In this document: piece by piece, positions 20,348-60,641 of the stretch
Layout of the letters: each line of letters begins with the position of its first letter
How positions within the stretch are numbered: the stretch's first letter is position 1
NCBI GenBank assembly: GCA_028532985.1
Contig: JANCIK010000010.1
Location: forward strand, 1-64,000
Direction of reading: 5' to 3'
Length of the DNA stretch: 64,000 bases
Source of the DNA: Stropharia rugosoannulata
Lineage: Eukaryota > Basidiomycota > Agaricomycetes > Agaricales > Strophariaceae
Notes under the pieces: generated by a model
What the model saw: only the letters and a program-made list of their open reading frames with translations
Told to the model about the DNA's origin: nothing
Databases searched by the model: none
Program-made: the position numbers and the translations under genes

Positions 20348-21629
20348 ATGCGTCAAGGAGAGGTCGTGTTAATGTTTGAGCGGGATGATAGGACTGGAAA
20401 GATAGAGATAGCGGGATATGCATTGCCAAAAAAGGGAGGGAGATTTGGCTCCGCTGAGCTGAGAGATGTGTACATGGCTCAAGCTGTGCACGAGGCTAAG
20501 ATGGAGGATAAAGAGAAAGCATCAATTTATAAGTACTTTCAGCAAAAAGAATGGCGAGAAAAAGAGACGGTGAAAGGAGAGCCTAGGGGGCAATTCCGCT
20601 CAGCGGACCCCGAGCAAGGCCAGTCAGCGCGGAAAGGAGTAACTAGAAAGCGGTTAACTGGTAAAAATGCCACTACCGTAACCGTCTTTGCAGGAAAGAA
20701 ATATAAACCGGTCGCTGACAAGGTCAGACCCATTTACCAAGAGCTACCAGAGAAATTCAGGATAGTGAGAGAGATAAAGGGAGATCTGCTGAAAGAAATG
20801 CCTCCGCTGATGGTACACCCACCAGAGTTTGTACCCACGGGAAGGTACACAGCGGAGCGGAAGGAGGAGATAGATAAAGCGCACGGAGGAGATTTCCTGT
20901 GGCCAGAGGAGCGCAAGCTAGTACACCAGGTGTTCATGCAGCAGAATGAGGCATTCGCGTGGGATGACACGGAAAAGGGGGGGTTTAGAACAGACTTCTT
21001 CCCGCCGGTGGATATTCCAACGGTAGAACATACGCCGTGGGTACTGAAAAATATACCCATTCCGCCAGGCATGTACGAGCAGGTGTGCGAGTTCATCACT
21101 ACTAAAATCCGCGCTGGGACTTATGAACCATCCAGTTCATCGTACCGGTCGCGCTGGTTCACAGTAACAAAGAAAGACGGGGTGTCCTTTAGAATAGTAC
21201 ACAGCTTAGAGCCGCTGAACGCTGTTACCATCGCGCACTCAGGATTGCCGCCGGCAGCAGAGAGTTTGGCAGAACACTTCGCTGGGCATGCATGCGGCGG
21301 AATACTGGACTTGTATGTTGGTTACGACGAGTGACTCTTAGCAGAGTCGTCTCGTGACTTAACAACATTCCAGACACCGTTTGGTGCGCTCCGCTTAGTG
21401 ACCTTGCCAATGGGCTGGACCAGTTCTGTACCCATCTTTCATGAAGATGTAACTTATATTCTCCGCAATGAAATACCAGACGTCACGGAGCTGTACATTG
21501 ACGATGTGCCTATCCGCGGACCGAAGACACGGTATGAATTAAGGGATGGGGGGTACGAGACGATTCCAGAGAACAGCGGAATCAGGCGTTTCGTGTGGGA
21601 ACACATGCAGAATGCGAATAGGATAGTTC
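20249..21629 (+). pseudogene. pol: Gypsy-2 reverse transcriptase, 5' half (interrupted)
   Basis: A basic linker (to about 20,700) precedes the RT palm and fingers: RWFTVTKKDGVSFRIVHSL near 21,150, TGA at 21332-21334 inside the conserved Tyr-Asp-Glu-x region, the TPFGALRLVTLPMGW block near 21,376, and the catalytic YIDD near 21,494. Coding stops making sense after GATAGTTC at 21,629. The exact continuation is found 39 kb away at 60,634. A few codons read on into the insertion and end at TGA near 21,654. Confidence 0.9.
21622..21629 (+). repeat. Left target-site duplication (GATAGTTC)
   Basis: GATAGTTC here is repeated perfectly at 60634-60641. Gypsy-2 RT coding reads correctly up to this copy and onward from the other one, so the repeat is an insertion footprint. 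Confidence 0.9.
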
Positions 21630-21668
21630 CAGGTAGTGTCGCCACACTGCAGTGAATGTCACGGTCCA
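21630..21668 (+). repeat. Left terminal inverted repeat of the 39-kb element
   Basis: After one unpaired C, the first 19 bases match the reverse complement of the right end (60615-60633) at 13 of 19 positions. Weaker similarity continues inward (CACGGTCC against GACGTACC). Confidence 0.55.
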
Positions 21669-21729
21669 GCAAACGACCCCATGTGTACGAATGAGTCGAC
21701 TCGGGAGAACTCGCCCAATCTCTCAAACG

Positions 21730-22620
21730 ACTCTGCTTAATTAGTACACTGCCGATGTAATTAGAAAGTCTTATAAAAGTAGTTGCCTATATTGACCACC
21801 ATAATACCAATTGTACAAAAATATCATCCGATAATTGCTGTGGCCGAATGGGTGGAATAAAAAGGGTACGATCCAACATGTTCTTTTAAATTTGAGCTAT
21901 GGACTATAGCTGTGTTCGGGCCAAGCGCTAGCTAGGTCCTGGCAATGATAATGGGCAGCGGCGATAACAATACACATCGGTGATAACAATAGATTTCAGC
22001 AATAAAATGAATATCAGCGATAAAATAGGTCTCGGCGATAAAACACCTTGACTTCTGTGAATGGAAAGAACTTCAGTATTACGATTGAGCCTATGACTTT
22101 CATTACAGATGGTAGGAAATTTAAAAAATGTTTAGCAGTTGGCGGTAGAAATGGTCGCAAATTTGAAGCAATTATTGCATCACAGCGATAAAAATGCTTA
22201 CGATCGGCGATCAATCACTATCATCAGCGTGTTGATGCTTTTTTAAGGTGCGGCGATAATAAATAATCACGGAAATAGAGTTGACAATGAACAGTCACAT
22301 TGATGGTCGGCAATAAACTCTACATTCTGGCCGATTATTATCAGGATTTATGCAATGAGAGAGAAAAAATGATACATCGGCGATAACTTCATTTAACCCT
22401 TAGTGATCTGTGGTATCAATTCCATGTCATGACCATCATCGGTGATAAAGACTTCTACATTTGGCATTCATTCACACAAAACTTGATGATAATAAACATT
22501 ATCTCAAGAATCTTCGGTCTCAAGTAATTCACATCTTAGTGATCCCTAAGCACCTAAACACACGTCGGACCAAGCAATGCTATTCAATATATACATGAAG
22601 CTATATACATCACTTCAATT
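21730..22620. repeat. Non-coding end of the 39-kb element with dispersed TCGGCGATAA
   Basis: About a dozen copies of TCGGCGATAA and one-base variants (AGCGATAA, TCGGTGATAA) lie between 21,955 and 22,450 in both orientations, within otherwise AT-rich DNA. There is no gene. The core also appears at 23,530 and 23,141 on this side and as CGGCGAT/ATCGCCGA at 57,245, 57,965 and 59,158 in the other arm of the same element. Confidence 0.7.
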
Positions 22621-22623
22621 AAC

Positions 22624-25543
22624 TCAATGAGGCAAACACACGGAACGCCGTGTTCCAGTAGATTCAGAAGGCGCTCTTGAAGCAGCCCTTGACGGTGCCC
22701 TTGAGCGCGAACGGGGTTGTGGGGAGGTGGGCCTTGAACGAGGCTGAGCGGACACCGCTTGGCCTCTCTTCGGGGGTCTTCCAACTCGCCTTGCCTCCTG
22801 GATGGGGGCTCCAACATCTGCAGTGCTTTCAATTGTGGTGATGTGAGGTACACCAGGAAGGCCTTTGGCCATAGCAACATCGCCGAGTGTGTCAGGCTGG
22901 GACGACGGAACCTCAATCACGGGAGATAACGGCCGGCGAACAGCGTCAACTGGGCGCGGAATGACGACTTCATATGACTGATCTTTGCCTACAACAGGCT
23001 TGCCATCCGCTATCCCCTCGTCATCTGAGCCAATGTCCATATCCTGTATCACATTTTCTGCAGACCCATCAGTTTGATGCTCAGCGAGCATACATGCGTC
23101 CTTGGTGCCCTCGGCAATCTCTCCATCTTCTGCAGGATCAGCGATAATTGCATCATTGGTGATACCAGTTGGCTTCGGGACATGGCTTCCCAACGCGACA
23201 GCGACATCCATGGGATCAAATGGTTCCACAAAAATGTTCTCACCATTGTGGACCTCTGTGTCAGACCCACCGGACCGTACTTGCTGCTCCTCCAAATCCG
23301 GGATTTGAAGGTCTGCCTGGAACATGTGCTGGATGGCATCTACTTCCACTGGATCTTCATTTCCTGTTGATATGTGATCTTTAAATTAATAAATTCTGAG
23401 AAAAGAACGAACATAACGTACTGGGAATTGAATAATGTCGGCGAACATCGTCCAATTGCTTCATCTCATCATCCATCTCCGAGATGAGTTCTGATTCTTC
23501 CTCTATGACTCTGGCGCGTGCTTTGGCAGCGGCGATAATATTGTATGCCTGGGCATACACCGCATCGGAGATTGCTTGAGCGCGCTTTTCGGTGGCAGCA
23601 ACGATCTTCTCGGCAGTCTTGCGCGCCTGTTGGATCTGCATATCACAGTCTGTGCCGGCTTCTGTGGACGGTGTCCGATGTTGAGGGTCACCAAGTCCGA
23701 GAGCCGTTTCGATAACAGCGAGGCGTGCGGTCACGGCAGAATGTTGGTCGGCGACACGATCAGCCAACTTGTCAAATGTTTTTAAGTTTATTGTTGTCAG
23801 TAAAGTTGAGAGTATATCATGACAATAAAGAAATTTACTGTTTGTATATGTCTGGCCGATCTCTTTGTTAATGAGACTATTATTCCATGCCGCCTTCTGT
23901 TCGACATGAGAGAGCCTGGCGTCAATTCTATGAAAAATGGTGTTCCAGTCGGGCGGGGAAAGGCTAGAGGAGGTTGCCTGCTGCTGCATGGCCGACGATG
24001 CACCGGCCGAGACTGAAATGTTGTCCTCACGAACGGTACTTGTTCTGTCCATTGCTGGAACTGGAGGAACAACGGTGCTGCTCGGTACCGCCGTGACTGA
24101 TGTGTTCGGCGGTGTCGCCGAGACATGGGAGGCACTGGCCACAGCAGGTCGTGCGTCTGGAAATAAGATTTAATATTTCAAATTAGGACTTATATATGTT
24201 AAGTGATGTGTGATGGTTACTGACATTTTGCTCGGCCCTTGAGATCATCAACATATACTTCAACAACCTTTTGCTTGCCCTTGTCGACGGTGGGTGTGCG
24301 CTGACCTTCCAGCTCCGCCCTCAACTCCTGCCTAAGCTGAGATGGGAGTTTTGTCTTGGACCCCGAAGGTTTTATGAGGCGGTGCTCGGCCGGCCGGTTA
24401 GAAATCGATGCAGTCGGATCGACTTGTTGAGGGGGCTGTGGGCGTGCAACCTTTGCGTCCCCTGGCCCAGTGCGCTGCGTTGCCTCCAAAGCAAGCTTTT
24501 TCATGGTCATCTCCGCAATCCCAGGGAGGGACCGCCGCGCTGCTTCCAGGTCAAGTCCCTTTGAAGAGGGGTTCGGTGGGGGTCTCGGCTGGACTACAAT
24601 GACATCTTCGTCTGACAGAGCCAAACATTAATAAATTTAGATAAATGTTAAACATTGCATAACATAGACAATAAATACCTTCTATTTCATCGTCTTCCTC
24701 GTCATCACCTGCTGCTGCTGTTACGCCCTTTTCGGGAATGGACAACTTTTTCGCATCAGCCGGAAGTCGACATTGCATCTTCCTGTTCGCGCACTCAAAG
24801 CACGCTAAGGTTGCCCCCTGCTTCCGCTGCCGCTTGACATGGCATGGGTAGTCATTGTTGCGGCAGTACCTGCATCGCGGAATCCAAAAAGATCCAGGCT
24901 GGATCTCGGCGTGAAGCCTTTGGGTCGTAGGGCGTCTCGATGATTCACTGTAGTCCTGGTCATCATGCTCGTCGTCGGCCCGATGTTTCTTCTTTGGTGC
25001 ATTGTTGTCGGCCGGAGGCGCTTTTCTTTTTTGGACCTTAGGCTTCTTTGCATTCCCTTCGTCCTTCCCTTTCGGCTTCGATGGACCAGCGTCAGGCTGC
25101 ATAGACAGCTGCCGAATACTGGTCTCCAACATTGCAACATCTTTCCCACCCGATGCTGCCACACCTTCGATGTCTTTAGCCGTCGAGACCGGCCGGAAGG
25201 ACGCAGTGTCTGCCTGAGGTTGTCGCACCGCTTCTTCATGCTTGTAAAATGCATTGAGCGCCTCAGCACTGGAGTTGATGGTGCGGAAACGACGCGCAGT
25301 GGCGAGGAAACTCCATTGGGACCAATTGACGTTCGGCTTGAGGACGTGTGAGCACACATTATTCTGCAAGACTGTAAGATTGATATACTGCATCATGAAG
25401 GTAAGCTTGCTCACCAGTTCTGGACGCTCCCTCCTGAATATTTCTGGAAACTTCCTCTCCGTCAACGCCTGGCAAAACAAGCGCTCCAACCTATCCAAGC
25501 GGGCCTCGTACTCGGCGACTTCCTTAGCATTGGCAGTGTTCAT
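22624..25543 (-). CDS. Zn2Cys6-type / AT-hook protein of the 39-kb element
   Basis: Unknown in name, but rich in DNA-binding features. ATG is at 25543. Introns at 24612-24678 (GTATTT..CAG), about 24,171-24,222 (GTCAGT..CAG) and about 23,364-23,424 (GTACGT..CAG) join four frames into roughly 880 residues. Exon 1 ends with a Cys cluster spaced C-x2-C-x6-C-x13-C-x2-C-x6-C (about 24,770-24,870). This is the fungal Zn(II)2Cys6 pattern with a slightly long linker, and that family typically binds CGG triplets. It is followed by a Glu/Asp tract. The middle is Pro/Ser-rich with a coiled coil (about 23,470-23,700). The C-terminus has an AT-hook core (VGRPPKRG near 22,770) and an Arg/Ser-rich tail. A nuclear DNA-binding role is inferred. 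It diverges from the gene at 25,729 over a 185-bp promoter gap. Confidence 0.72.
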
Positions 25544-25728
25544 ATTGAGTGATCGGCAGGAGCAATGAATTGCGGGCGGCAGAACTTGGAGGGACGGTGA
25601 TGGGAGTGACGGAACAAGCAAGTCAGACGTGGCCGAGATTGATCAACAGAGTCACGTGTTTGCTGACAAGATATATTTGGTTTACGCGTGTTGAACCAAC
25701 ACCATCACGGCGACACCATCGATCTCTG

Positions 25729-26266
25729 ATGAACTACGCAAATACGCCCGCCGAGACAGTCTTACAACTTCAGAAGCGTCTTCAACATCTGTTAGAAATG
25801 GCAAGGAAGGAATGCTCAGTTGGTGATGCAAATTCAATGGTAATGTACACTTTAACAATGTTTAATTCAATTTTATTCTCATGTTGTACAGCCTCTTGCA
25901 CCACTCGGTCGCCCATTTGTTCAAGTATCTCCGATGAGCGTACAAGTTCCAAATGACCCTGTGAGATAATGATTCAATATGGCGTTACAAATTTCACTGA
26001 TGCTTGACACAAAAAAGCCAATGACAGACAAGGAGTTAATGTCATTACATTCCAAAATTCTTGCCTATAAACAACTTGATGGCGGAACATATCTTGAAGC
26101 ATGCACCCTTGTCTATTTTGAGGAACTACGCAGCTTGGAAAATGCTACTCAGCAACTCAACACATGGAAGAGACTCAAAACTGTCGCGGAGCACAATCGG
26201 CAGGAGTTAATGAAAATTATTGCCGAGGTAAAGAAATGGAGGTCAGGCTTGTCTTTAAATACATAG
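25729..26266 (+). CDS. Small coiled-coil protein, unknown function
   Basis: Three exons by eye. ATG 25729 is followed by a helical segment (ETVLQLQKRLQHLLEMAR). An intron follows the codon ATG after AATTCA (GTAATG..TACAG, near 25,840-25,889), then a short Pro-rich exon, then a 54-bp intron (GTGAGA..AAAAAAG, about 25,961-26,014), then a helical exon to 26,266. The product is about 145 residues, mostly alpha-helical and charged, without a recognised domain. It is divergent from the Zn2Cys6 gene and convergent (38-bp gap) with the gene at 26,304. Confidence 0.6.
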
Positions 26267-26303
26267 GTTGACCATCGGTGTTAGTTTGTATATACAATGA
26301 TCA

Positions 26304-27020
26304 TTAATGATTGCCACGCCTACCAGTCATGCCAGAATGTGTCCGTGCATCAGGAACGTACTCCGATGTACCCATGTGCTCACTCAAACGCTCCACCTCA
26401 GTCTTTCTAGTTCTTTTTTTTTGAACTTGAGTTTTTGGTATTTCCTGATGTTCGGCCATTTCTCCATCAGTGTTGCATATAGGGGCCGGTGATGCAGTAT
26501 TTCTGGGTGTTGGCAACATATGTGCAATAGCATGTAAAGCACTGAGCGACGGCCGGGTCATAAGTTGAGCATCAACATTGAGTGAGACGCCCGAGGCAGG
26601 CAACCAATTGACGGCATCAAGATTTGTAGCAGCAGCTGTTGTAACTGTTTGTGATGTCCAGACTATAGGAGGACCAGATGCAGAACCGATTGGAGGAGGC
26701 CCTCCACTTAGGGTCAAATACCGATGATCATCATGTGTAATATGTGGTTCTGCCGATGACCCAGAATATGTCATCGGCTGAGATGCAATATCCCATTCGG
26801 GGGGACTGTTTAAGCCGGCCAATCCCAATTTTTGATTTATTGAGGGACAATTAGACAAGTGGTCAGAATGGAGATGTTCATGAGAAGGAACAGTGCCTGG
26901 ATGATCATTGAGAATGATCTGAGGTGCCTCGGCCGTAGCTCCGGCCGACCTCTCGCAAACTGTGGCAGAGTGCATCAGGAGCTGAGGGTCAATATTGCTG
27001 TTGTGGTCACTCTGTGTCAT
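26304..27020 (-). CDS. Ser/Thr/Pro-rich protein with basic C-terminus, cargo of the 39-kb element
   Basis: The frame is open from just inside an apparent acceptor (TGTGCAG, ending at 27,030) to the stop at 26,304; the first Met is at 27,020. It is low-complexity, rich in Ser/Thr/Pro/His, with a basic segment KKRTRKTEVERL near the C-terminus that could be a nuclear signal. No family was recognised. The foldback element starts only about 17 bp upstream of the acceptor-like site, so the 5' part of the gene may lie on its far side (see 31,372-31,620). Confidence 0.5.
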   Translation of the reverse strand: MTQSDHNSNIDPQLLMHSATVCERSAGATAEAPQIILNDHPGTVPSHEHLHSDHLSNCPSINQKLGLAGLNSPPEWDIASQPMTYSGSSAEPHITHDDHRYLTLSGGPPPIGSASGPPIVWTSQTVTTAAATNLDAVNWLPASGVSLNVDAQLMTRPSLSALHAIAHMLPTPRNTASPAPICNTDGEMAEHQEIPKTQVQKKRTRKTEVERLSEHMGTSEYVPDARTHSGMTGRRGNH

Positions 27021-27526
27021 TGATTCCACTGCACATAGTGTAGCTACACTGTACCGACACAGTCGTACCTAGGGACACTACAGTGTAGTCGACAGTGTCG
27101 GTCCCTAGGAACACCCTCGTACCCGCAGTGTATATGGCCTAAATAGGACAAACTACACTGTAGTCGATATACTCGTACCCGGGTACAGGCCCTATATGCC
27201 GCATTATGCCGTGCAGTCAAGCAGCATTGCATTGCAATAGTGGGCGGCATTACATTATACTGATGTGCGGCATAGTGAAAAAATGAATTATGCCGCATTA
27301 TGCCATGTGGTCATGCAGCATTGCATTGAGATAGTGGCCAGCATTACATTTTACTGATGTGCAGCATGAGGAAAAAAGGAATTATGCCGGAAATCATATG
27401 GAATTGGATAGCTGCATGAATCACGTAGTATGTAGACTGGTTGTGATAATATGAGTTTGCCAATGTGGCATCACATATTTAACTTGCAGCAATCTTTCCA
27501 GATGTGTTCACATATGAATTACTCAT

Positions 27527-28637
27527 TACAATAGTACTGATCATCCACATATTGCCGCTTCACATATTTACCTTGCGGCATTCATTAAAAATGTAGCCAA
27601 AAAGAATGCAAAATCGAAATATTCATTACAGCAGTACTGATCATCTATTCCTTGCGGCAATCGCTGCAAATGTGGCCCAAAAGCATCCACAATCGAAATA
27701 TTCATTACAAAAGTACTGATCATTTATACATTGCTGTTTCAAATATTTACCTTGCGGCAATCATTGGAAATGTAGACAAAAATGCAGGGATTTCCAATAA
27801 AGAATGTATCACTATGTGAGATGGCCACAAGTCAGATAGTTTGGATAGCATACATGTTATGGCAAGTAAAGTTGGATGAGAGAATAGTATTGTGTGTCGA
27901 TTGCCACTGATGAATGTATAACTACATAAGATGGCTGCAAATATGCATAGATTGCCACTATTAAATGTGCCACTATGTGAAATGGCCGCAAATATCCATA
28001 GATTGCCACTGATGAATTTATCACTACATGAGATGGCCGCAAATGTGCATAGACTTCCACTGATGAATGTATCACTATGTGAGATGGCCACAAATGTACA
28101 CAGATTACTACTGAGGAAAATATCGCTACATGAGATAGCCACAAGTCACAGTTAGATAAGGGAGTTCTATTCTACATAGATTGCCACTGATAAATGTATC
28201 ACTATGTGAGATGGCCGCAAAAATGTGTAGATTGCCACTAGTAAATGTACTACGTGAGATGGCCGCAATAATGCATAGATTGCCACTAGTAAATGTACTA
28301 CTACGTGAGATGGCCGCAATAATGCATAGATTGCCACTGATAAGTGTATCACTTCATAAGATGGCCGCAAAAATACGTAGATTGCCACTGATACGTGAAC
28401 TACTATGTGAGATGTCCTTGAGTTACAGTTGGATCAGGGAGTTCTATTCTGCATAGATTGCTACTGATACATTTATCACTATGTGAGATGGCCACAAATA
28501 TCCCACTGATAAATGTACTACTATGTGAGATTGCCGCAAATATGTGTAGACTGTCACTAATAAATATACTACTATGTGAGATTGCTGCAAATATGCGTAG
28601 ATTGTCACTGATAGATGTACTACTATGTGAGATGGCC
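27527..28637 (+). repeat. Left arm of the foldback, 51-bp tandem repeats
   Basis: From about 27,900 the arm is a tandem array of a 51-bp unit (GATTGCCACTGATAAATG, then TCACTATGTGAGATGGCCGC). Because 51 is a multiple of 3, frames stay open and encode a 17-residue repeat of the MAANMHRLPLINVSLCE type; these open frames are by-products of the repeat. The array continues unpaired to about 28,920. Confidence 0.85.
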
Positions 28638-29768
28638 TTGAGTTACAGTTGGATCAGGGAGTTCTATTCTATGTAGATTGCCACTGATACATTTATCACT
28701 ATATGAGATGGCTGTAAAAACATTTAAATTGCCACTGATAAATGCACTACAATTTGAGATTGCTGCAAATATGTGTAGATTGCCATTGATTCATGTATTA
28801 CTATGTCAGATGGCTGCAAGTGACACTTGGATAAAAAAAGTTGTATTTTGTGTAAATTGCCACTAACATAGATTTACAATAATTAATATACTACTACATG
28901 AGATGGCCACTGATGAGCATGCTGCTGTACTTTGCTCGGAAACCATGTTTTGGCATGTTCCAGATTAAGTGCCTGTTAAATGCCTGCCTCACATTGTACA
29001 TGTGCTGCACAGATCATAGTATTCCGACACATTCCATGCATGCAGGTCCAGGAACAATAAGAATAGGGACTTTTAGGTGCTATTACAATCAAAATACAGG
29101 GTTTTACTGTCCCTATTGTGTCTTGGTTGCATCCAGCATCTAAGAGTGGTTTGAAGCTGTCGTAGCAGCTTACACTCTCGCGTTTTGGTATTGTTTTTAG
29201 CTTGTTCCGGCTTGCCTTTGTGTATTGTTTTGGGGTTTGGTTGGAAGCCATGTGGAAAAACCTCGCCTTTGTACACCTTGTGTATGTTGTGTCCATGATT
29301 TCTTTATGATTTCTGTGGTCGCAGTATATACAAGTGTATCACTGCAAGTTACAGTTGGATGGCATTACAGCTTGTGGCATGAAATACCAAACATGTAGCA
29401 CAATTTGAGGTGTAAGTTAATCTATGTAACATCTATCTGAGGTGGCTCTGGAGTTGGATATGTAAGGGGAGACAGAGCATTGATACAGCAAGCTTCCTCT
29501 CTTTTCTGTCATATATGTTCAAATAACATTGTTCCCGTGCATTTTGGTATGCCACCAGAGTCAGGCTAGTTCTGAATGTATATTGTATATTAGCCACCGC
29601 AGGTTGTGCTATATATTTGGTATTTCATGCCACAAGCTGTAATGCGCAAGAGATTATGCTTAAGTGCCCATTAAGCATCCAGTGGTATTTTACACTATTT
29701 ATGCTACTCACAAGCCATACTCATCATATCTTATTGACTTTACATTCCAAATACATTTTTAAGATTCC
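28638..29768. other. Spacer of the foldback
   Basis: It contains the unpaired end of the left array and about 0.8 kb of unique AT-rich DNA. Within this, CAAATATG-type and GCATGCAGG-type words occur, but no convincing gene. Short frames on both strands lack introns or domains. Confidence 0.5.
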
Positions 29769-30885
29769 TCAAGGCCATCTCACATAGTAGTACATCTATC
29801 AGTGACAATCTACGCATATTTGCAGCAATCTCACATAGTAGTATATTTATTAGTGACAGTCTACACATATTTGCGGCAATCTCACATAGTAGTACATTTA
29901 TCAGTGGGATATTTGTGGCCATCTCACATAGTGATAAATGTATCAGTAGCAATCTATGCAGAATAGAACTCCCTGATCCAACTGTAACTCAAGGACATCT
30001 CACATAGTAGTTCACGTATCAGTGGCAATCTACGTATTTTTGCGGCCATCTTATGAAGTGATACACTTATCAGTGGCAATCTATGCATTATTGCGGCCAT
30101 CTCACGTAGTAGTACATTTACTAGTGGCAATCTATGCATTATTGCGGCCATCTCACGTAGTACATTTACTAGTGGCAATCTACACATTTTTGCGGCCATC
30201 TCACATAGTGATACATTTATCAGTGGCAATCTATGTAGAATAGAACTCCCTTATCTAACTGTGACTTGTGGCTATCTCATGTAGCGATATTTTCCTCAGT
30301 AGTAATCTGTGTACATTTGTGGCCATCTCACATAGTGATACATTCATCAGTGGAAGTCTATGCACATTTGCGGCCATCTCATGTAGTGATAAATTCATCA
30401 GTGGCAATCTATGGATATTTGCGCCATTTCACATAGTGGCACATTTAATAGTGGCAATCTATGCATATTTGCAGCCATCTTATGTAGTTATACATTCATC
30501 AGTGGCAATCGACACACAATACTATTCTCTCATCCAACTTTACTTGCCATAACATGTATGCTATCCAAACTATCTGACTTGTGGCCATCTCACATAGTGA
30601 TACATTCTTTATTGGAAATCCCTGCATTTTTGTCTACATTTCCAATGATTGCCGCAAGGTAAATATTTGAAACAGCAATGTATAAATGATCAGTACTTTT
30701 GTAATGAATATTTCGATTGTGGATGCTTTTGGGCCACATTTGCAGCGATTGCCGCAAGGAATAGATGATCAGTACTGCTGTAATGAATATTTCGATTTTG
30801 CATTCTTTTTGGCTACATTTTTAATGAATGCCGCAAGGTAAATATGTGAAGCGGCAATATGTGGATGATCAGTACTATTGTAATG
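29769..30885 (-). repeat. Right arm of the foldback
   Basis: Reverse complement of 27,527-28,637 with very few differences (one is a short deletion near 30,420), so the two arms are kept alike. Transcripts through both arms would form a perfect long hairpin. Confidence 0.88.
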
Positions 30886-31371
30886 AATATTTCGATTCTG
30901 CATTCTTTTTGGCTATATTTTTAATGATTGCCGCAAATTTTCAAGCAATTTATGTAGAGCGGCAAACTCACTTTTGTATCACATTTAAAAGGTATCCTAT
31001 AATGGTTTTTTTTTGTAGTGCAGCAATTATTATTACATTTAAAGAATAGGCCGCCATGGTTTTTAGTGGCGCAGCAGGTAACATTTGAAAGGCATGTTGC
31101 AAAACAATTTTAGTAGTGCGGCAAACTATTTCCAATAATTATATGCGGCAAAGCAAATTAAGGGATGCCACATAACAAACACTTTCAAGGCTTATAGTAC
31201 TATACAGGATTTGACTAGTCTAATCATTACCCACTAAGTATAAGCGGCAATTTCTGGCATGTCCAAATATGGACAGGAAGGCCGCGGGTACGAGAGTGTT
31301 CCTAGGGACCGACACTATCGACTACAGTGTAGTGTCCCTAGGTACGACAGTATCGGTACAGTGTAACGTGC

Positions 31372-31620
31372 CTACCTGTCCACTGGTAATTGAAAGGTAA
31401 ACAAACAGTCATTGAAATTGTCTCTCGGCAGTGAAGGCAATGCAGAGACCACTTCTGAGCGAATGTCGGCCAGCACTGATGCAAGCATGGCGGTTTCATC
31501 TCCCTTTGCCAGGGCATTCATTATCAACATTGTTATGTTTCTTGAAAATCTGCTTACCAAGAATTTATGTAGTACAGGCCCTTGAACTTGTATGGTGCCT
31601 TTTCTTAGGGCAGGGGCAGG
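31372..31620 (-). CDS. Possible 5' exon of the gene at 26,304-27,020
   Basis: An open frame of about 80 codons (containing NALAKGDETAMLASVLADIR) ends at a donor-like GTAGGC only a few bases from the foldback's right end. An acceptor-like TGTGCAG sits just beyond the foldback's left end, next to the downstream frame. The geometry suggests an element inserted in an intron. The phases do not match as read, so either the gene is broken or the two frames are unrelated. Confidence 0.3.
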   Translation of the reverse strand, partial: PAPALRKGTIQVQGPVLHKFLVSRFSRNITMLIMNALAKGDETAMLASVLADIRSEVVSALPSLPRDNFNDCLFTFQLPVDR

Positions 31621-34600
31621 TTACCATGCAGATATAATGCACCCCGCATTGTGGTAATAGTACACCCTGCATTTCCCTCAATCCACACCCCGCCTGCTTA
31701 ATGATAGTGTGTACAAAATTAAGCATAATGAGCCCTATTCATATTGGTAGCGGTATTAGCATATTACATTCATATTAAATTTGATAATAAATGTAAAGGA
31801 AAAGGAAGAACGGAGTCGGTGTATAATAGATAGATTTGTCTGTACAGCGTAAGCAGTTTGTGTCAGACTGTAAAGAGACAATGTTTCATTTCATTCTAGA
31901 TAAAGCGTAGGTAATCCATTTCAGTTATAAACAACGTATACACGGAGCGGGACTAGCAAAGTCTCCCCGAAACAGTCAGCAACAAACACATTTGGCATAA
32001 ACACCGCAAAAACTGTGTCCTAGTATGCATTTGGGATAGACTGCAAATAACATGTCCACAATGTACCGTACCTGCAGACTGTAAATATCAAGCAGAAGAC
32101 TTACCGTCCCTCCAGACGGAAAATGAAATACAGTTAATGTACGGTCGCAAGGAACTTTGTGTACGCCGATTGCATGACCTGAGAAGTCATTACCTACAGT
32201 GCAGGTGTATCAAACACCATCATGCGCAGGGCAGCGCATGGTATGTACCGTCCTCGTGGGTCAGCCCACTAGAATGGCATCGGAATATGGTGACGCCAGA
32301 CTACTGACTGGTCGAACGGTAAAGTCAGTGCGCGCATTGCACGGGTGACCCGCACCGAATATGCTCAATACACGTGCGAGAGCATATCGCAGATTCGGGG
32401 TATGTGTTAATGTACGGCCGCATCACTATCGCATATATAGGCAGAGTGACGGAGCCGCAGACAAATAATATCGGGGTTGACACCGCAGATGGGATGCTCA
32501 CAAAGCACGGTCACCGTGACAGACTGTAAATACAAAGATGATGATGTACCGTCCCTCCAGACAGTAAGTGAAATAGTGTTAATGTACAGTCGTAGGGAAC
32601 TGATAATTGATCGTCCCTCCGGACAATAAGTACAATAGTGTTAATATACGGTTGCAGGGACCTATGTGTACGTTGATTACATGGGCAGAAAGCTGAGTGC
32701 TTACAGTGCAGTTGTATCAGACAGCATGCGGAAGGCAGTACCGTCCTCATGGGCTAGACCATGAGTATGGCGCTGACATATGGAGAGTCCAGACTGTGGG
32801 CGCAACCTTCTACCCTCGAGAATTTAAAGGTGAGCGTAACCGCAAGTAAAAACATAAAATGTATCTGTTGGCACAAACTGCTTACACCAAGCAGGTCATA
32901 TACAGTACATTTGGACTCCATGTAGAAACCTGTTGTGGTGTCGACACCCGGTAGCACTCTTACACATTGATCAGTAGGCGGCCCGTGTAGAGACTAATTG
33001 ATAAACCGTCTGTATATTGTGTGCGGCCGTAGTGAGTGAAAAGGAGCTGGTAGGAAACACACAAGGCCCATGAGCCATATAGATGCATGCCAACAAATGA
33101 GCACAACCACAAGCAGTAGTCCAGTAGTCTACCATTGACCCGGGCTGCAGTCCCCCTGGACTGCAACTTAAAAAAGTCTTCATGTACTGTCACACGGCAC
33201 TGGAGGCTCTCAGGCGCAGCTTGGTGGGTAGCTGATCTTGTACTATCGAGCCATTCTTTGTTGAAGCTCAGACATGGCTCGTTGTCGTACCGATTCACCG
33301 CATACCGCGTGCCCCTCTCCTAAGATCTCGTGTACCACAAACACCACAACCACAAACTACTAGTGGATCACATTACATCTGGAGAACATATATTATACAG
33401 ACCTGTCAGACAGTAGATTTAGCACAACCGAATAAATTAATGGACTGTCCAGGCCGCAAATTCAGCGCCCATGACATACTCGTCTGCCAGACCCGCTGAT
33501 TATTGCTGGAATCTAGAATGTCATGTGTAGTCGTGCTTGACTTCGGACGCGCAACCACGAGCGCGTACTGTGAATTCTGTATAGATGAGTCAAGCCACAA
33601 ATTTAATGAGTTCATTACACGGGCAAGGCATACCGGCATATTCAGTACCCACACTATACTGATTTACTGCTCGGTGAGGCCGCCAGTTCAGATTTCTCAA
33701 TACCACGGGCGTGGTATTCCCCATCTTCTGTGCGCACATTTTACAGATTGGTCCAGCCGCATATTTAGCCAATACACAGGGGTAGCACACCGCATATTTA
33801 ATACCTATAAGATACTGTTTATTAAGACTGCATGTGTGGCACAGACTTTGTACGGATCAGTCAGTCCGTAAATACAGTGCCCATAACATGGTGGTTACTC
33901 GTACCGCAAATGTAGCTGGCACGATATACCGATCACCGAGACTGGCCTGCAGGTTATGTCGGTCATGCAGCATTCAGCCGCAACAGTTGATATTATTCCT
34001 AAGAGTTGTGCTACTGATGTCCAATGTAATACATGGGTGTGGCCTACCGCATATACGATGCCTACACTTTACTGATCTGTCCAGCGGCATATTCAGTGTT
34101 CTCAATACACAGGTGTGGCACACTGTATATTCAGCACTGGCAATACACTGTTTATTAAGCCTGCATGTGTGGCACGCACTTTATACGGATAAGTCTGTCC
34201 GTAAAGACAGCGTCAGTGACATGGTGGTTACTAGCACCGCAAATCCAACTCACACAATATATTGATCACCTCGACCATAGTGGCCCCATGTGTACGGTGC
34301 GCTTGATATTCTATAGATGGTCTGCTCTATTACATCTCCTAAGATATGTCACAAGTAACTGGTGACTCATCTTGTCTACTTCATGTTTTCTTCATGACAA
34401 TGTAGTGACCCACAGTGGTTTATGAGCTCTTTATTGGTGCTAAGACGTGACTCGTCGTCGTACTGATTCGCCACCGCATACACGCGTGCTCCTCTCAGAC
34501 AGTAGATTCAGCTGCCTCAATAAACGGATTGTCCAGGCCGGAAATGCGGCACCCATGAAATACTACTTAAACGGACGCGCTCATCCTTGCTAAAATTCAA

Positions 34601-35794: not shown

Positions 35795-36005
35795 GACCGT
35801 AATATTGGCATGCATATGACCTTTAAAAACATTTCATTACAATATACAAATAACCCTTTGATACACATTCATATTTCCTTCACACAGGGGGCCGAACATG
35901 TGTGCATATCGTGCAGTCTTGCCAGACCGCAGATGCGCGGCCCTCGATTTACAGAGCACATGTACCGCAAATCACCAGGAATGTGCGTACTGCTCAGTGG
36001 GCCCG
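35795..36005 (+). repeat. Left inverted repeat of the inner element
   Basis: Pairs with 55,900-56,111 in reverse complement, with roughly 85-90 percent identity by eye. It includes AAAACATTTCATTACAATAT and GAGCACATGTACC. It contains an ACCGCAAAT motif near 35,961. Confidence 0.8.
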
Positions 36006-36138
36006 TTAGTTCTACCGCTTATACACGCTGTAGATAGCCGTGTTGTAATGAGCTGATACATTGATCAGCACATGCAATGCAAACCACAAACAGTTTTAAG
36101 GGACACAACATAGCAAGCCTACAACCAGTTTCAAAATC

Positions 36139-37189: not shown

Positions 37190-37247
37190 CGAAGGAGGAT
37201 GTACATTTCTGTCTAAAATATCGCTAATGAAACATTGAATACGCATT

Positions 37248-39438: not shown

Positions 39439-39510
39439 CCGTTCTGCAGCTACGACAATACTGCAGGAGTAGGAGCAGATGAAATTAGTTACTTCATATT
39501 AGTGACCCGG

Positions 39511-47490: not shown

Positions 47491-48202
47491 GAAATGGTGA
47501 ACTGTACCAATAGGGGTCTCCAGATGGTGCTAAGTTTGCACGTCGAATACTGGTTCGTTTAGAGTGTTCTTGGGTGCGTTAGAAACGTATAGATGAGCTA
47601 AAGACGTACCAAAAAACCGTTTGATAATGCGGTAAACCGTTCCGACAATATACAGCAATCTCTATAGGGATGGGCCTATTCCATCCACATTTGCCCTCCT
47701 GACATAAACCCAAGCTCTAGACCAGATCTAACAAGGTAGCAGCCACCAAGGACTGCCTGAGTAGAGTAGAGCCTAAGCATACATACAAGTAAAGCTGAGG
47801 GAGGGGGTTGGGGAACATGAGAGTGAAGTGCAAGTGAACTTAGAGGACTTAGTCGACTTAGTGCGATATTGGATAGGCTTACATAATCAAATTATCGGAC
47901 TATTTGAAGTACTTAAATGGGCATGTCACCCACATAATGTGTATAATTCTATTGTTTGAAAATCAACAATGAAGGTGGGAAAAGTCATTCAAGCTGGCTT
48001 TATTTCCCCACGTTGCATGGAAATTCAAAGCATGCCAGGGCATGCCAGGACATGCCAAGGCATCTCATGACATCCTAAAGTAGTTAAAGGCCCCATCAAT
48101 TGATGATCTGATCGCACTTTCCTAAAGTGCCCTCTGATCAAAAGTCTTTTTCGTGATGTTCTCGTAATGTATTTGATCAACACTTATGTATATACACAAG
48201 GA
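47491..48202. other. Non-coding stretch with ATGCCAGGGC words
   Basis: AT-rich and without a gene. At 48,030-48,070 the words GCATGCCAGGGCATGCCAGG repeat, echoing the 45.3-kb CAGGGCA array. Confidence 0.45.
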
Positions 48203-50297: not shown

Positions 50298-50347
50298 ATG
50301 TTTGTAAAGAGATATTATTACAGAGAGCCATTTGACTACGTCAAATC

Positions 50348-52332: not shown

Positions 52333-55300
52333 TTAGGATGTAAATCGAAACATCTTTCGAATACGCATACGGTTCCAAATAGAGAGAAATACTTTTGTGA
52401 GACTCATGGCTCGCTCCTGGCCCATATATCCAATCATCTTGCGGATCCTTCCTAGCCCCTGATTGCCACACTCCCCAGCGCTTGTGTTAATAGGAAGTAG
52501 TCGAGGATCAGAATTTTTGTAACTCTTGAGGAAGCAAGCCGATGCACATTTTGTATGGTCGGTGGCATGAAAGTCGTCAATGGCAAATAGAGTTTTCTGG
52601 AAGAATTCCGGCTCTCTGAGCATGCAGTATGGCTGTAACTCACAGGCAAAGTCATATACAACGATATCCGGTGCTTTTCCCACCTTGTGTACATGGCAGA
52701 AAAGACGTCGTTTCTGCCTTTGCCAACCGGAATACAATGAAATCCATATGCAACACTGTGTGTGCACCAGCAGACCATAATACCCCCTGTTAACTTCTTG
52801 GGGCTATATGTGGAGTAGAATTTGCGGCAGCCATATTTTCTATCAGAAGTTGTATCCTTAGAGTCTTCTTTGAGCTGTGGATAGGATGGTCGGAATTGAA
52901 TCTGCGGCATTGCATAGTAACAACCGGTCTATACAGGTCACTCAATATTAGTGAATTGACTACACCAGAAAAAATAGCATACCTGTCTCCATTTCGAAGA
53001 ATCTGTCTCTGTCTGAGGGACTGGTTCCATTGTTTTGTGAACTAGATACTCTCTCCGTACACACTCTGCCCGGACATAGAGCCAGCGACAGAGAGCAATT
53101 GTTTGAGGACTGAATTCACTGTTCTTGATCAACTCATACTCCAATGTGTGGTAAACACTCGGTATATGAATGAGTTTGGAGTATGTCTCATACAAAGGGC
53201 ATTGAAGAAACTTAAGAAGTAGCGGTAGCATGCGTCCATTAACCATCTGAACTGCATTTTCTTCAGCAGCAATCTGTGACGCATAAGAAACACGACTGTG
53301 AAGAGATGAAATTGGGCATACCTGTAGCAAAAGCTCCTTATACTGTGAAAGCGGAACACGGTGATTTAGAACAGCCTGAACCCCGAAATGACATTCAAAG
53401 AAGGTCCCCAGCGATTTATCCACATTCATAAGATCATTGACAAGTTGGGGAATTAAATGAAATCAGCGCTTCATGGAAGCCTTCTGCTTTTCAAGGGCTT
53501 CTTCTCTGGATTGTCTGGTCAAAGCCTCTTCATCCAATTCAGATTCTGACAGCAGACTTTCCATCTCTGTCGTCTTGAGACCTTCAGCAAGAGGGGGACC
53601 AGATATCGCCTCACGAAGCAGCTTTCTCAGGGCTCTGTCAGGGATAAATTGAGGACCTTTGAGGCGCACAGTATCCTGGTATATCGGTGACTTTTGTGTA
53701 ATGGATGTCGGAGGTTCCAGAGTCGAAAGTGCCATTTTTCGATTGAATGCAATACATACTCCATCCCAGATTACCATAGAAGGCGTGGGGCCACAATCAG
53801 GACATACCATGTCTAAGCTTCCAAAGTCCATAAGCCTTGCGTACGCGAACCAAACATCTCGGAACTTTTTCTGATCAAGAAACCGCTGACCACCTGGCTG
53901 TGTCGAATACCTGCGGGAAATGACAGTCACCCAAGCTGTGAATGGTGTCTCAGAACTTGTAAACGTGCTGATATAGTCATTGAGGACCTCATGGGCAATA
54001 AGAATGCTATTATTGTAGTTGAACAATCCGAACTCCCCACAATCGGGGCCTATGCAATTCACTTTGCAAGCCGGGCAGAGCTGAACTTCGATTGTAGCTT
54101 TCCATGACTTAAGCAGTCCATAAACCGTACATTGCCTTGTTACAACTGGAGCATTAGGGGCGAGCATTGTACGAGGCATTTGACAATTGCACGATGATGA
54201 GTCCGATACCTTGAAGGTAAGCCCCGAGTAGTTATCAGGCAAGGTTGGTACCACTATAGGCAAATCAGACGGGACTCTAGCCCATGTCGGAGGCAATACA
54301 GGAATATAGGAGATTGCAGAGTCGGAGAGACTGATGCCATTGGATAAGCGTTGAACTTTCCTCGCTGTTCGAGTTTGTGCATTAGTACCTTATCTCTGAT
54401 TTGTACGAACGCCGCTCGTCTCACCTTCTATATGTGGCAGGAGCTTCACTGTGTAATCTGCAGCTGAACGGTCGTGGTTAAGAGTGCGTTTGGCCATGGC
54501 AATGTGAGGACATGATTGAGCAGAATCTTGCATGCACTTCCAGCGTCCTGATCCATCATCTTTCCCAATGTACTCGACAACAGTCGTGTTCTTAATAGTT
54601 GGATCGATGGGCGGTGGTACAGATACAAAATTGATGAATTCGTCCCCACTACTACCCCATGGATATCGTTGAATAATAGTAGGGTTCTGGTGATTTACTG
54701 CAGCAAAAACATGAGGTGATTACCATGCAACACTGAACATAACTTACGTGGCATATCCTGGACATCGGGAAAAAATATAGACCCATGATCACGGATAAAT
54801 CACGAGTGGAAACAGTTGGCCGTTCTCTTTGATTCAGGACAGAGACATACAACAATTAACTCTTGATCGAGCTTGCTCGCATGAATGTGATACCAAAATT
54901 TCTGAGTAAGTAACAGATTGTCAGTAATTTCAAGTAGCGCATATCATCAGTCATCACTTACCGTCAATTCTCCCTTCTCATGATTCCATCCTGTTGCTAC
55001 GTATGTCTTTCTTGATAGTTGATAAAATGGCAACATCCCATTGATTATGGCATCAAAAAATAGCTCATAACGCTCTTCAGACTCATCAGCTGCGGGTATA
55101 TCGCAATTTGCATCATGAATAAGTGTATCATAGAAAGCGCTGTGGCCTTCGAATTGCATGGGCTGAGCGCTTGGTGCAGTCTTAGATTCGGTCATAAGTA
55201 CAATATAGTGCACTGGTTATGTTATCCGACTTACCCAGTCAGGTGGATCGCTCGTGGGCTGCTCGACAACGGACTCAGCCTCCCAGGTTGGTGAACTCCG

Positions 55301-55899: not shown

Positions 55900-56111
55900 T
55901 ACGGGCGTACTGAGCAGCATGCAATACCCTGATGATTTGTGGTACATGTGCTCTGTAAATTGAGGGCCGCACATCTGCAGTCTGGCAGGACTGCATTATA
56001 CACACATATGTTCAGCCCCTGTGTGAAGGAAATATGAATGTGTATCAAAAGGTTCATTGTATATTGTAATGAAATGTTTTTAAAAGTCATACACATGCCA
56101 ATATTACGGTC
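55900..56111 (-). repeat. Right inverted repeat of the inner element
   Basis: Reverse complement of 35,795-36,005. The outer end is ...CCAATATTACGGTC, ending at 56,111. Confidence 0.8.
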
Positions 56112-56197
56112 CTAGTTCAGTTCCTCCAGTCATATTGAGGGAATGGCTTGAAATGATTACTTCGGCGGAAAATGGCTGAGTCACGGACAGATCTGTA

Positions 56198-57535
56198 ATG
56201 GACATATACGCAGCACGCATCAAACTGGGAAATGAGCAAGACTATGGTTGGCCCGAAGATTATGATCCAAGTCCAATTGAAAAATGGCTAGATCTTGCAT
56301 TCATTGTCGAGGAGGAACAGTAAGAATTTCAATACGTTCAATGCTTCATTATATCACTCAATGTTTATTAGGATGGCTATTCAATGTAGCATTCGGCGTT
56401 ATCATCATGACAAGCGCGATTCCTCCATTGAAACCATACAAAAATCTCGTATGGAATTATTTCACAAATTCAGCCTGCTTGAAAAGATGGAGAAAGAGCT
56501 TGGCATTGTCAAACTAACAACGCGCGACATAATGTCTGAGCCACCTGTAATCACCGATGCTCCCAATATTGCCGAATGGGACATTCTGGATGCAGACGAG
56601 AATGTCGATGGTTCAACAAATACAAACTCAATTCCCTTTGTCCCACCTTGCAGATCTGGTAGACTAGGCACTGACAACGGATTGGCAGAACCAGATAAAG
56701 GCCTTGATTCAGACAAACTTCCTGAACTTATTGAACTGTTGTTGCCATCGTATCTCAATGTCAGCAATGACTATGCTCCGGCCGAGATGTCAATGCGCCG
56801 CCAGAGAGCACATCGCTATCTGTCTCAAATCCGAGAACTCATCGCAGAAAAGTCTTTTCGGTACACTGATCAAATTCGAAATGCTCCCAGAAAGGGTGTC
56901 CGGACTCGCGGCAGAAGTGCCATTCTGGACTTGAACCACCACATATCACATCTATGTCAAATGTATACATGGACAAGAAACCGTATGATTGCTCTCGGCG
57001 CTACTACGAATGATGCTCTCGCCATGTATTTGGAGCTCACAAAGCATGATGTTCGGTGTAGCACAGCTGTGCTACAACCAAATCAACAGGGCTCAATGAA
57101 GTTGACGTTGTCATGGATCTGGTAATCCATAAGCAGACGTAGGCTGGCTGGCATATCCCACATGACTGACAGTGAAGATGAAGCAACTGTGCTGGAATGT
57201 ATGTATGACTTTATTGGGGTGGTCAAATGAATTACTGACGCTGACCTCGGCGATCCAATTTAGTCAAACGAATTCATTGGCTGCGCGCAAGGGCCAGTCA
57301 TGATAGATGGCGCGAGGAACAAATTTTTGTCAAGCATGAGATGAATTGGACGGTTAGGTACTTTCTGCATCGCCAGATGTTCTGGGCAAATGCGCTGAGG
57401 GACTACCCTCACATGCAACACGGTGCCCGCGGATACGCCGAGAGGAAGCGCCGAGAGTGGTTTGATATGGCCGAGAATGCGGATCAGTGTTTTAAAGCCT
57501 GCTCAACCGATTATCTGTCCCCATTATCAATTTAA
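56198..57535 (+). pseudogene. KDZ transposase C-terminal region of the 39-kb element
   Basis: ATG 56198. An intron (GTAAGA..TTATTAG, about 56,321-56,371) leads to a long exon to about 57,120, then GTAATC and further small exons to TAA 57,535. Recognisable are the KDZ C-terminal helical region (RYLSQIRELIAEKSFRYTDQ, RKGVRTRGRSAI, then TRNRMIALGA) and the terminal block HWLRARASHDRWREEQ, KHEMNWTVRYFLHRQMFW. No Cys cluster or DDE core precedes it, and the inner element's edge is only ~90 bp upstream. The inner element has therefore probably separated it from, or replaced, the N-terminal part. Confidence 0.62.
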
Positions 57536-57738
57536 TGAGACCTTTGTATTTATGGAGTGTTGTATTCGGCCGGCCATAATGTCTATCAGTGGTTATTCAA
57601 AATGTAAATGCTTTTTGTATGGGCAATAACTACATCACATGATTCTTTTTCACACGAATAATTGAAAAAAGAAAGTCAACCAATTGCTGTCTCTTTCTTA
57701 TCCATCAACCATCACCAGGCCAGACCTATATCAGAAAA

Positions 57739-60250
57739 ATGCCGCAACTCATCAATATTTTCAACCCAGTCACTCAGAAAGCATTCGCCGAACATCCCCA
57801 TCTCCCGTATTTGAAAGAGGTTGTCGCTTATTGCGAGTCGCATTTCCGCGCAATAATACCCGTCATTGCAAATTTACCCACCGGCAAGCAAGAAGTCAAA
57901 TAGAAAATGCTTGAAAACTTGTGTTGTGAAGTTGTACGTACATTTTAAAATAATGTTACACTTTTCAGATCGCCGAGACATTTATACCAGAAATTTGCAA
58001 TGTTCCACGTGGGTATCGGCGCAAGTTTATCCCTCGGAATACCCACGCCGATCGTTACCCGAACGTTGGCGAATCAATTCCTTCTGTCTGACTCCAATGA
58101 CTTTATCTTCGGGGAAGACGTCCTGGAAATGATTGCTCTATACCCATCGGTGCTTGACACCGAGGAGCAATACATTATTGAGTCACGATATGAAAATAAT
58201 TGGTGGAAAGAATGTAACATGCTCCAGCCGTACCTGGAGAACTTCAATATCAAGAAATGTTTGGAAGTGCATCGCAAATTGAAGATTGAACGCCTTACCC
58301 CGAAGGATCTATCTCCGGCTGCGAAGCGAAAACTGCTTGAAGAAGTTCGCAAGGTCACCTCGCCAGCCACTGATCACGTCTTCCCCGAGCAATTAGTTTT
58401 CGACCTCCCGGCACAAAGGTGTAAAAATTGTATCACTCTAACAGCCCTCTGTGTACATTCCTTTACAAAACTTGAGGGCATCATTCAGTTCGCCGACGGG
58501 ATGATAGTGTCTTCTGAAAAGGATCACAATATTGCTAGTTGGTTGGTCTCCGCGGCTAGCGAGATACGCGAGCTACTTCTTTCCAAGCCCAATGGACATA
58601 CTCCTTCAAGTCAAGAAATCCTCTCAATGAGACCATCGGCCTTAGGAACTACAGCCGTGAGTCATACTGGTTATCTCAACTCCCTTCCCACTGCTTTTGA
58701 CAAGGAATGGTATGGATATGAAACCGCCGAGGTTGACAGTCTTCATGATAAATTCTCCGTTGCCAGTGGGCAGGCAGTTGTCCCCAACCAGAGTGCACCA
58801 AGTTATGCCGAACGTAAATTTCATCAAATTGATGATGATTCAGATAAAGAGCAAATCACCATACCATCATCGCCTACACTGTCTCTGGATTACCCCATTT
58901 CAGATGAGTTCCAGGACAACAAATCATTGCCTGATCCAACCATTTCTAATCGTCAAGGTTGGTTTATCTATCTCCTCATTTTGAATCAGTTACTTATACT
59001 ATATTTTTGTATAGTTACATCAATGTTGAAGAATGTCGTTGTTCCCCCGATGGCCAGCCGTGTCGCTCTCAATAATGTCAACTCAGGTTAGTTTTATTTT
59101 GTCCATACACTTATCAATACCTCTGTACTGACTGCTGTGCTCCCAAATTCAACCTATCGGCGATATCTCAAATCCTCGTGGTTCGCCGATGATCTCGGTT
59201 TTGCTGACCCCAATGGAGAAGTAGAACCGCTACACAACGAGTTTGCAGATTCTCATCATTCGGAAGTATCTGAAGACCGAGATTTGCAGTGGGCCACCGC
59301 TCTTCAAAAGTCCCTGAGGACAATGAATTCGCCGAGTCACACCATCCTGACCTGCCTGTGGACAATGAATTCGCCGAGTCACACCATTCTGACTTGCCTG
59401 AGGACAATGAATTTGCACCGACACACACGTCGTCCTACATTCCTGAAAATGCACAGCACCAGCCTGACCTGTTGCCTGAAGACAATGAATTTGCTCTAAC
59501 CCGAGAGTCGTCATACATCCCGGACCACGCAAAATCACACCAACCTGACCTGCCTAAGGACAACGAGTTTGCTGCCACACCGCCGCCCAAGACTCCACTG
59601 GACAATGAATTTGGAGGTTTGTTGAGTCTACTTTTCTGGCATATCATACTCAATCAATCATAGACAGCCCCACGGCCGGACATATTCAAAGTGCCGAGAG
59701 CCTCCCAATCCGCGAGTGTGCAGGTGAGTCTGGTCTACTTGAGATCTCATTTCATTCATCATATTAAGACTATTTTTGTACCCCATTGACGAAGCTCCGG
59801 CCGGCATTCCCAAAGCCAATGACATTTTTCACCAACCCATTGATGACGAATTCGCAGGTCCGTAGTTTTCAGAATGAACTTGATATCAAAGTCCATTATC
59901 CGAACCATAACTAATTTGCTTCAGAAGACAGCATTGTTGCAATGAGCGATGAACCGCTTCCTCTGGATAACGAGTTTGCAGATGAGACTATGACGCAAGA
60001 CGTCCAGGAGAGTGATCGTCCAAGCACCAATGAACGTCTTGGACCAGGGCCCTCAGCCACGGAAGATAACTACAACTTCTATAGATACATCCAACTTGAA
60101 GATGTCATAGACCCTGATGATGACACTGTTTATGCATCGGCCTTGGATGATAGCGACTCCGAATATCATGAGGGTAGCTCGCACTCCCCAGAAGACTCAT
60201 ATTATAGTGACTCGGCGGATGAAATGTATATGGATGACGGCGAAGACTAA
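57739..60250 (+). CDS. Cys-motif protein with C-terminal NEFA repeats, cargo of the 39-kb element
   Basis: ATG 57739; a first exon to about 57,920, an intron ending TTTTCAG near 57,967, then a long exon to about 58,955. Two frames overlap at 57,968-58,080, so a splice or indel is misread there. The main exon has a helical region and CKNCITLTALC (C-x2-C-x6-C, near 58,415), half of the Zn2Cys6 pattern seen in the gene at 22,624. After further introns, an acidic region carries nine copies of a (P/L)xDNEFA-type motif (59,230-59,990), partly as 42-bp DNA repeats. The tail is very acidic (DSDSEYHEGSSHSPEDSYY). It may be a nuclear factor acting with the other Cys-motif protein; function unknown. Confidence 0.55.
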
Positions 60251-60633
60251 AATGTAAAAAAAAAGTTGTACATATGTTTTACCTCTTGTGTTGATAGACT
60301 ATTGAATGTGTTTTTACTGCTCCTTCACATTCAGTTTTAATGACCTTCCCAATGGTAGTCATTGGGTATATATTACTTGACATATCTCTGCTATGACTGA
60401 CATATCTGTGCTCTCGGGGCATCCGGCCCATTTTCCGCCGAACAAGGCTTTCCTGGCGATCGCAGCAAAGTCGGGGAGTGTTCGCTGGACCCATATGGTA
60501 CGCACACACTGTAGTCTGTCCCATTTAGGCTTACGCTTGAGCAAACGAGCGAACTCTCTTGACCTGACTGATACAGCTACAGTGGGACCGTTCTCTGGTA
60601 CGTCTTGTATGGTCCAGTGTAGCTACGGTATGT
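60251..60633. repeat. Right end of the 39-kb element
   Basis: A non-coding terminus ending CAGTGTAGCTACGGTATGT. Its last ~19 bp pair imperfectly with the left end. GCCGAA/CCGCCGAA motifs occur near 60,435. Confidence 0.6.
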
Positions 60634-60641
60634 GATAGTTC
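60634..60641 (+). repeat. Right target-site duplication (GATAGTTC)
   Basis: Perfect copy of 21622-21629. Gypsy-2 RT coding continues directly from here (CAG CGG ATG AAG). Confidence 0.9.

Follow-up and report, generated by a model that had tools for sequence, protein, structure and literature searches.

A 39-kb insertion in a Gypsy element of the mushroom Stropharia rugosoannulata as a probable nest of KDZ transposons

The window analysed here, which comprises the first 64,000 bases of contig JANCIK010000010.1 (C10:1-64000) of the Stropharia rugosoannulata genome (47,968,167 bases in 20 contigs, labelled C1, C2 and so on), contains a 39-kb insertion within a Gypsy-type retroelement, and thereby raises the question of whether so long an insertion is one giant cargo-bearing transposon or an assemblage of smaller elements. 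The original prediction, made from the letters of the window, favoured the former: a large multi-gene DNA transposon, comparable in size and cargo to the giant elements of other fungi, with remains of a KDZ-type transposase and an 8-bp target duplication as in Zisupton. Comparison with other copies in the same genome leads us to a different reading, to which we assign a probability of roughly 0.87: the outer element is a Kyakuja-type KDZ cut-and-paste transposon of about 14.5 kb that landed in the Gypsy element, was later enlarged by nested KDZ elements and was then deleted in part. The assignment to a DNA transposon of the KDZ group is thus retained, but the insertion is not one multi-gene element of 39 kb, as only about 10.15 kb is the outer element's own sequence. 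A "giant" element of a mushroom can therefore be a nest rather than a cargo carrier.

The ends of the outer element are defined by its other copies. The left 771 bp and the right 934 bp of the insertion served as queries against the genome, and the two ends reappear at an identical base in 10 complete copies, that of the window included, which range from 2.6 to 51 kb. Four of the others are large (C5:106775-122687, hereafter C5a; C1:4462701-4487702; C5:3579535-3630632, hereafter C5b; and C9:554126-568788), and five complete the set (C10:843647-854561, C10:1101040-1103596, C8:1673423-1676145, C11:80599-83310 and C2:38472-41466); the right ends of these coordinates are quoted without the terminal G. 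This G is the base that follows the right end originally proposed, lies at 60634 in the window, and is present in all 10 copies. When it is counted as part of the element, nine of the 10 copies are flanked by a perfect 7-bp duplication, different in each case, whereas counting it as target yields an 8-bp match in only three, which is about the chance expectation for a G. As the base is constant it belongs to the element, and the duplication is of 7 bp rather than the perfect 8 bp claimed at first. The element accordingly spans 21630-60634 on the plus strand (CAGGTA...TATGTG), with a length of 39,005 bp instead of 39,004 bp, between copies of the duplication ATAGTTC at 21623-21629 and 60635-60641. 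All 10 copies have CA..TG termini. The imperfect terminal inverted repeats of the original prediction are borne out in a weak form: 14 of the first 20 bases pair in the window copy (chance about 3e-5), and 14 or 15 of 20 across the 10 copies, while no terminal inverted repeat was found in the outer element at the level of blastn.

A single insertion sits in the polymerase region of the Gypsy-type element: a YIDD motif lies on its upstream side, and on its downstream side Pfam detects an RNase H domain, which is followed further on in the right flank by an integrase zinc-binding domain; RNase H followed by integrase is the typical Gypsy order. The left open reading frame (20243-21331) gave no Pfam match, and in particular no reverse-transcriptase domain, so that the label of reverse transcriptase for this flank derives from the YIDD motif and the position. 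The Gypsy copy in the window is decayed: a stop interrupts the frame about 300 bp ahead of the junction, and the right flank changes frame. Hence the earlier description of a split reverse-transcriptase gene holds as to the single insertion, but Pfam matched no reverse-transcriptase domain in the left frame and the coding is not strictly continuous: a Gypsy polymerase gene, broken before or since, is split between YIDD and RNase H. The uninterrupted Gypsy site, which the original prediction had proposed looking for together with further copies of the ends, was found as well. Among uninterrupted Gypsy copies elsewhere in this genome, at least 27 close ones show left-flank and right-flank matches that share exactly 7 bases, and two diverged ones (about 77%) an overlap of 5. 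These counts are lower bounds drawn from the best 40 of 114 and the best 40 of 92 flank candidates, with 31 of the 40 used on each side after exclusion of the window itself and of eight partnerless matches; two C10 copies (2409519 and 2425303) were left unpaired, their left match ending 109 bases early. In two native Gypsy copies GATAGTTC is present once, with the frame open across the site and past the YIDD motif.

Alignment with the other copies reduces the outer element to 10,153 bp of its own within the 39,005 bp, in three plus-strand parts: 21630-27031 (element positions 1-5402, about 97% identical to C5a, C1 and C5b), 31379-31606 (9750-9977) and 56112-60634 (34483-39005). The C9 copy has this core in 14,664 bp, with two genes, A and B, on the minus strand, and a KDZ transposase gene and a gene D on the plus strand; the differences among this copy, that of the window, C5a, C5b and C1 are mainly stretches of other sequence, which sit at different places. 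The C9 genes come from a splice-aware gene model that fused the transposase with gene D, and the boundary between them (about 11.6-11.8 kb in that copy) was set by judgement. In the window the exons of gene A, including a CxxC-rich stretch, lie at 22627-25642 on the minus strand. The 3' part of gene B follows on the same strand at 26307-27031 (26325-27032 in the genome-wide match), with the rest interrupted or deleted except for a short piece at 31379-31606. The plus strand has a 3' remnant of the transposase gene without its KDZ domain at 56112-57532, recognised by alignment of the copies, and the exons of gene D at 57646-60250. None of genes A, B and D has a Pfam match above the curated cut-off, Tet_JBP included, in the parts scanned, which cover all but one 136-residue exon of gene A.

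The joined exons of the transposase in C5a match the KDZ domain (PF18758, E 2.5e-36) and the CxC2 domain (PF18803, E 5.4e-15). Database searches gave 42 homologues, the best of which, from Flammula alnicola, is 51% identical; those named to species come from what we take to be Agaricales mushrooms. When the C9 protein is aligned with 12 of the 42 homologues, D499, D621 and the zinc cluster's eight Cys/His residues show no variation and conservation of E681 is at least 90%; D499, D621 and E681 probably constitute the catalytic triad. Between C5a and C9 the ratio of nonsynonymous to synonymous substitution rates (dN/dS) is 0.31 for gene A (854 codons), 0.17 for B (327), 0.15 for the transposase (1080) and 0.15 for D (561). 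The window copy lacks core positions 5728-11389 (C5a numbering), and with them the KDZ domain. As none of the 123 KDZ exon matches listed for the genome falls in the window, this copy has lost its catalytic domain; the remains of a KDZ-type transposase that had been predicted are there as the outer gene's 3' end and the CxC4 portion of an inner gene, without the KDZ domain itself.

The remainder of the 39 kb is made up of elements that occur elsewhere on their own. The first is a 4,347-bp element (CACATA...ACCTG) at 27032-31378 on the plus strand, flanked by its own 7-bp duplication TCCACTG at 27025-27031 and 31379-31385, where the core without it reads TCCGCTG once. It has relatives in C2, C9 and C11, and two in C12 of about 14.4-14.6 kb, which have 7-bp duplications (ACAAATA and GGCTGAT) and one KDZ match and one gene-B match each. 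As these C12 relatives include KDZ matches, the 4,347-bp element is a short member of a second KDZ family. Part of its interior is formed by two inverted arms of 1,127 bp, 99.7% identical to each other (27516-28642 and 29768-30893).

The second is larger: 31607-56111 (24.5 kb, plus strand) is collinear with C12:2724858-2751258 (26,401 bp) and C9:389178-416548 (27,371 bp), both of which begin with AGGGCAGGGG..., end with ...AACATATACC and are flanked by the 8-bp duplications AAGATTAC and GACCAACG, respectively. The window thus contains a shortened copy of a 26-27-kb KDZ-associated element, with the left end AGGGCAGGGG... and a right end that has been deleted; its right arm stops at 56111, directly against the core. 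A transposase-like gene of this element encodes a CxC4 domain (PF18717, E 2.9e-45) at 53466-54389 on the minus strand, and further pieces of it, spread over more than one frame, lie at 52336-53462 on the same strand; the gene is apparently broken in this copy. Two gene regions of opposite orientation, at 36100-37186 (plus) and 37251-39082 (minus), have no Pfam match above cut-off, and among 17 open reading frames of the inner stretch nothing besides CxC4 exceeded the curated cut-off. The KDZ model is unmatched in this copy, and CxC4 and KDZ occur together in two of 71 homologues. A shorter element of 20.3 kb, bounded by 212-bp inverted arms (35795-36006 and 55901-56111), was also considered and set aside, the arms lying inside the longer arms of the 26-27-kb element in the C12 and C9 copies. 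Within the inner element sits a 2.9-kb high-copy repeat (45273-48159) that is absent from those two copies. Among the best 37 of 185 candidates it occurs at 88-96% identity in more than 30 genomic places, and it contains a direct duplication of 472 bp. By these sequence comparisons the nest holds three KDZ-related families, and an 8-bp duplication is seen only for the inner CxC4-type one, in its two other copies; the likeness to Zisupton drawn from 8 bp does not extend to the outer element with its 7 bp and CA..TG ends. The resemblance to the giant elements of other fungi is likewise not supported, as the extra length is nested transposons, and no host-derived cargo was shown in the 39-kb insertion.

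The cut-and-paste view has as its basis the ends, the duplications, the empty sites and the transposase gene of the sister copies. On this view a transposase with CxC2 and KDZ DDE domains would recognise the short imperfect ends and insert with a 7-bp staggered cut. An outer element of about 14.5 kb landed in the Gypsy copy; a short member of the second KDZ family inserted into it with its own 7-bp duplication, and the 26-27-kb CxC4-type element, itself holding the 2.9-kb repeat, also inserted. The landing in the Gypsy copy is shown, as are the nested insertions by comparison with copies free of them. To judge from the breakpoints, one deletion may then have taken both the right end of the inner element and the outer KDZ domain, and the present 39-kb copy, without a transposase of its own, would be movable only in trans. 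The succession of outer insertion, nesting and deletion is an inference.

Several observations weigh against parts of this account. The copy at C10:1101040-1103596 lacks a duplication; the searches showed no partner for two ends (left, C5:291200; right, C9:279362); and the site at which the inner CxC4-type element entered the core cannot be checked for a duplication, its right end being gone. The outer element has weakly inverted ends (14 of 20), whereas two Laccaria families of Kyakuja are described in PMC12730594 as having no terminal inverted repeats. Finally, the nesting may precede the last jump, with the loaded element moving in trans.

This last point leads to the alternative that survives best, namely that the element had already been filled elsewhere and entered the Gypsy element as a loaded 39-kb unit, served in trans by a sister copy. 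The intact outer ends and 7-bp duplication, despite the lost transposase domain, would suit such a jump, and intact duplications also flank two copies of 25 and 51 kb; however, none of the other copies compared has the same load, and insertion into a resident element takes one step fewer, so that we consider it improbable. Lower still we place a single giant Zisupton-type transposon that inserted with its cargo as a unit and an 8-bp duplication, and regard it as very unlikely. Eight bases do repeat in the window copy taken alone, and KDZ-associated domains are present, but the 8-bp match is confined to three of 10 copies with the extra G constant on the right, the inner 24.5-kb and 4.3-kb stretches are found in other places as separate elements, with ends and duplications that belong to them, and none of the close full-length sisters C5a, C1 and C5b shares these two insertions at these sites. 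An assembly chimera or recombination artefact has a negligible chance, for although our analysis rests on the assembly, every outer or nested end that is present matches the end of an element as seen in other copies, duplications flank the outer and the 4.3-kb element, and the nested copies are several percent away from their relatives and hence are no simple assembly duplicates.

With the history of accretion followed by deletion as our preferred reading, the affinities of the outer element can be considered. Kyakuja elements of Agaricomycetes, such as Kyakuja-1_LB and Kyakuja-2_LB, have 7-bp duplications and CA..TG ends according to PMC12730594, and in the same text Zisupton and a Dileera element have 8-bp duplications. 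The outer element fits the Kyakuja type, and not Zisupton, by its 7-bp duplication, its CA..TG ends and its CxC2-KDZ transposase, a provisional assignment. It shares with Kyakuja the KDZ transposase, duplication, termini and agaric host, and differs in that no TET/JBP gene was found in it and in its conserved genes A, B and D. Zisupton was considered for the outer element and is ruled out by the duplication (nine of 10 copies at 7 bp, three at 8). With Zisupton and Dileera it shares the superfamily domain PF18758 and differs in its 7 bp; the inner CxC4-type element shares their 8-bp duplication, a likeness of duplication length. The Cryptococcus elements KDZ1-KDZ3, as described in PMC12810828, are of about 9-11 kb, have a Cys-cluster transposase (CxC1) and have been observed to jump; their terminal inverted repeats are of 139-241 bp and their duplications of 8 bp (KDZ1) or 4-8 bp (KDZ2 and KDZ3). 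By this account they resemble the Stropharia elements as KDZ elements with a Cys-cluster transposase, and differ in the CxC1 type, the longer inverted repeats and the duplication lengths.

Among the papers available to it, a literature search returned no report of nested KDZ elements, of CxC4 together with KDZ or of giant cargo transposable elements in Basidiomycota. The Starships of Pezizomycotina are large multi-gene elements with a DUF3435-type tyrosine recombinase and host-like cargo. The insertion recalls them in its size range and several genes, but the transposition gene found for its family is a DDE-type KDZ transposase, and most of this copy is nested transposons. No Pfam match to a DUF3435-type recombinase appeared in the 26 translations scanned, a part of the open reading frames, and a Starship-like cargo element is unsupported. 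The genome provides exact ends, duplications and empty sites for a TET-less family of the Kyakuja type, as well as ends and duplications for the second KDZ family (7 bp) and the 26-27-kb CxC4-type element (8 bp).

A TET-bearing KDZ element had been considered, but Tet_JBP was sought inside the element and not found. In the genome there are 32 TET/JBP matches (one below cut-off) beside the 123 KDZ exon matches, and 26 of the 32 have a KDZ match no more than 8 kb away. A genome-wide search with gene B as it stands in the C9 copy (C9:561375-563882) gave 63 exon matches, which group into 19 loci. At 15 of these it stands head-to-head with a KDZ match, 1.6-2.9 kb apart; the exceptions are the window copy, with its KDZ domain deleted, and C1:146376, C13:2021521 and C8:3037854. 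The spacing was computed with 49 of the 123 KDZ matches, and inspection by eye revealed no further KDZ match near the exceptions. Four of the 15 loci belong to the outer family and two to the second; as loci share families, it is the families that constitute independent cases, and we give no probability for the association. Tet_JBP is found within 15 kb of none of the 19 gene-B loci, and none of its 32 genomic matches lies in the window. Among 88 of the KDZ matches (the others being mostly extra pieces of the same loci), 26 have Tet_JBP within 8 kb, 15 a gene-B locus and none both. Gene B has no database homologue at E 0.001 among 7,995 candidates, in a search that depends on shared 5-residue words and is no proof of absence. 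A tentative suggestion, to which we lend less than even credence, is that a TET-less branch of KDZ elements might use gene B as an undescribed head-to-head partner in the place of TET/JBP. Its product might act as a second protein in transposition, or else as an alternative factor against silencing. Other partner genes may be in print already in the work of Iyer et al. on KDZ (2014). Gene B thus raises a testable question of what a KDZ transposase needs beyond itself, and of what replaces TET in families without it.

Among the copies of the outer family, those of 2.6-3.0 kb (C8, C11, C10:1101040 and C2), and that at C10:843647, which has grown to 10.9 kb, have in common with the big family only about 100-160 bp at either end; by their sequence these short copies are probably non-autonomous members, and copies without a transposase may be mobile in trans. 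In the largest, C5b (51 kb), a further KDZ match (C5:3587362) lies within an inserted stretch of 15.4 kb, and part of the copy is inverted. Over 5,783 columns the four close copies (that of the window, C5a, C1 and C5b) differ from one another by 1.6-2.8%, and their private C-to-T or G-to-A changes are 10.6 to 37.9 times commoner on CpG than elsewhere. Hypermutation was not detected in Agaricomycotina according to PMC12730594, in contrast to this CpG-biased change. The bias is as expected for methylated DNA, and plain deamination of 5-methylcytosine may be its explanation.

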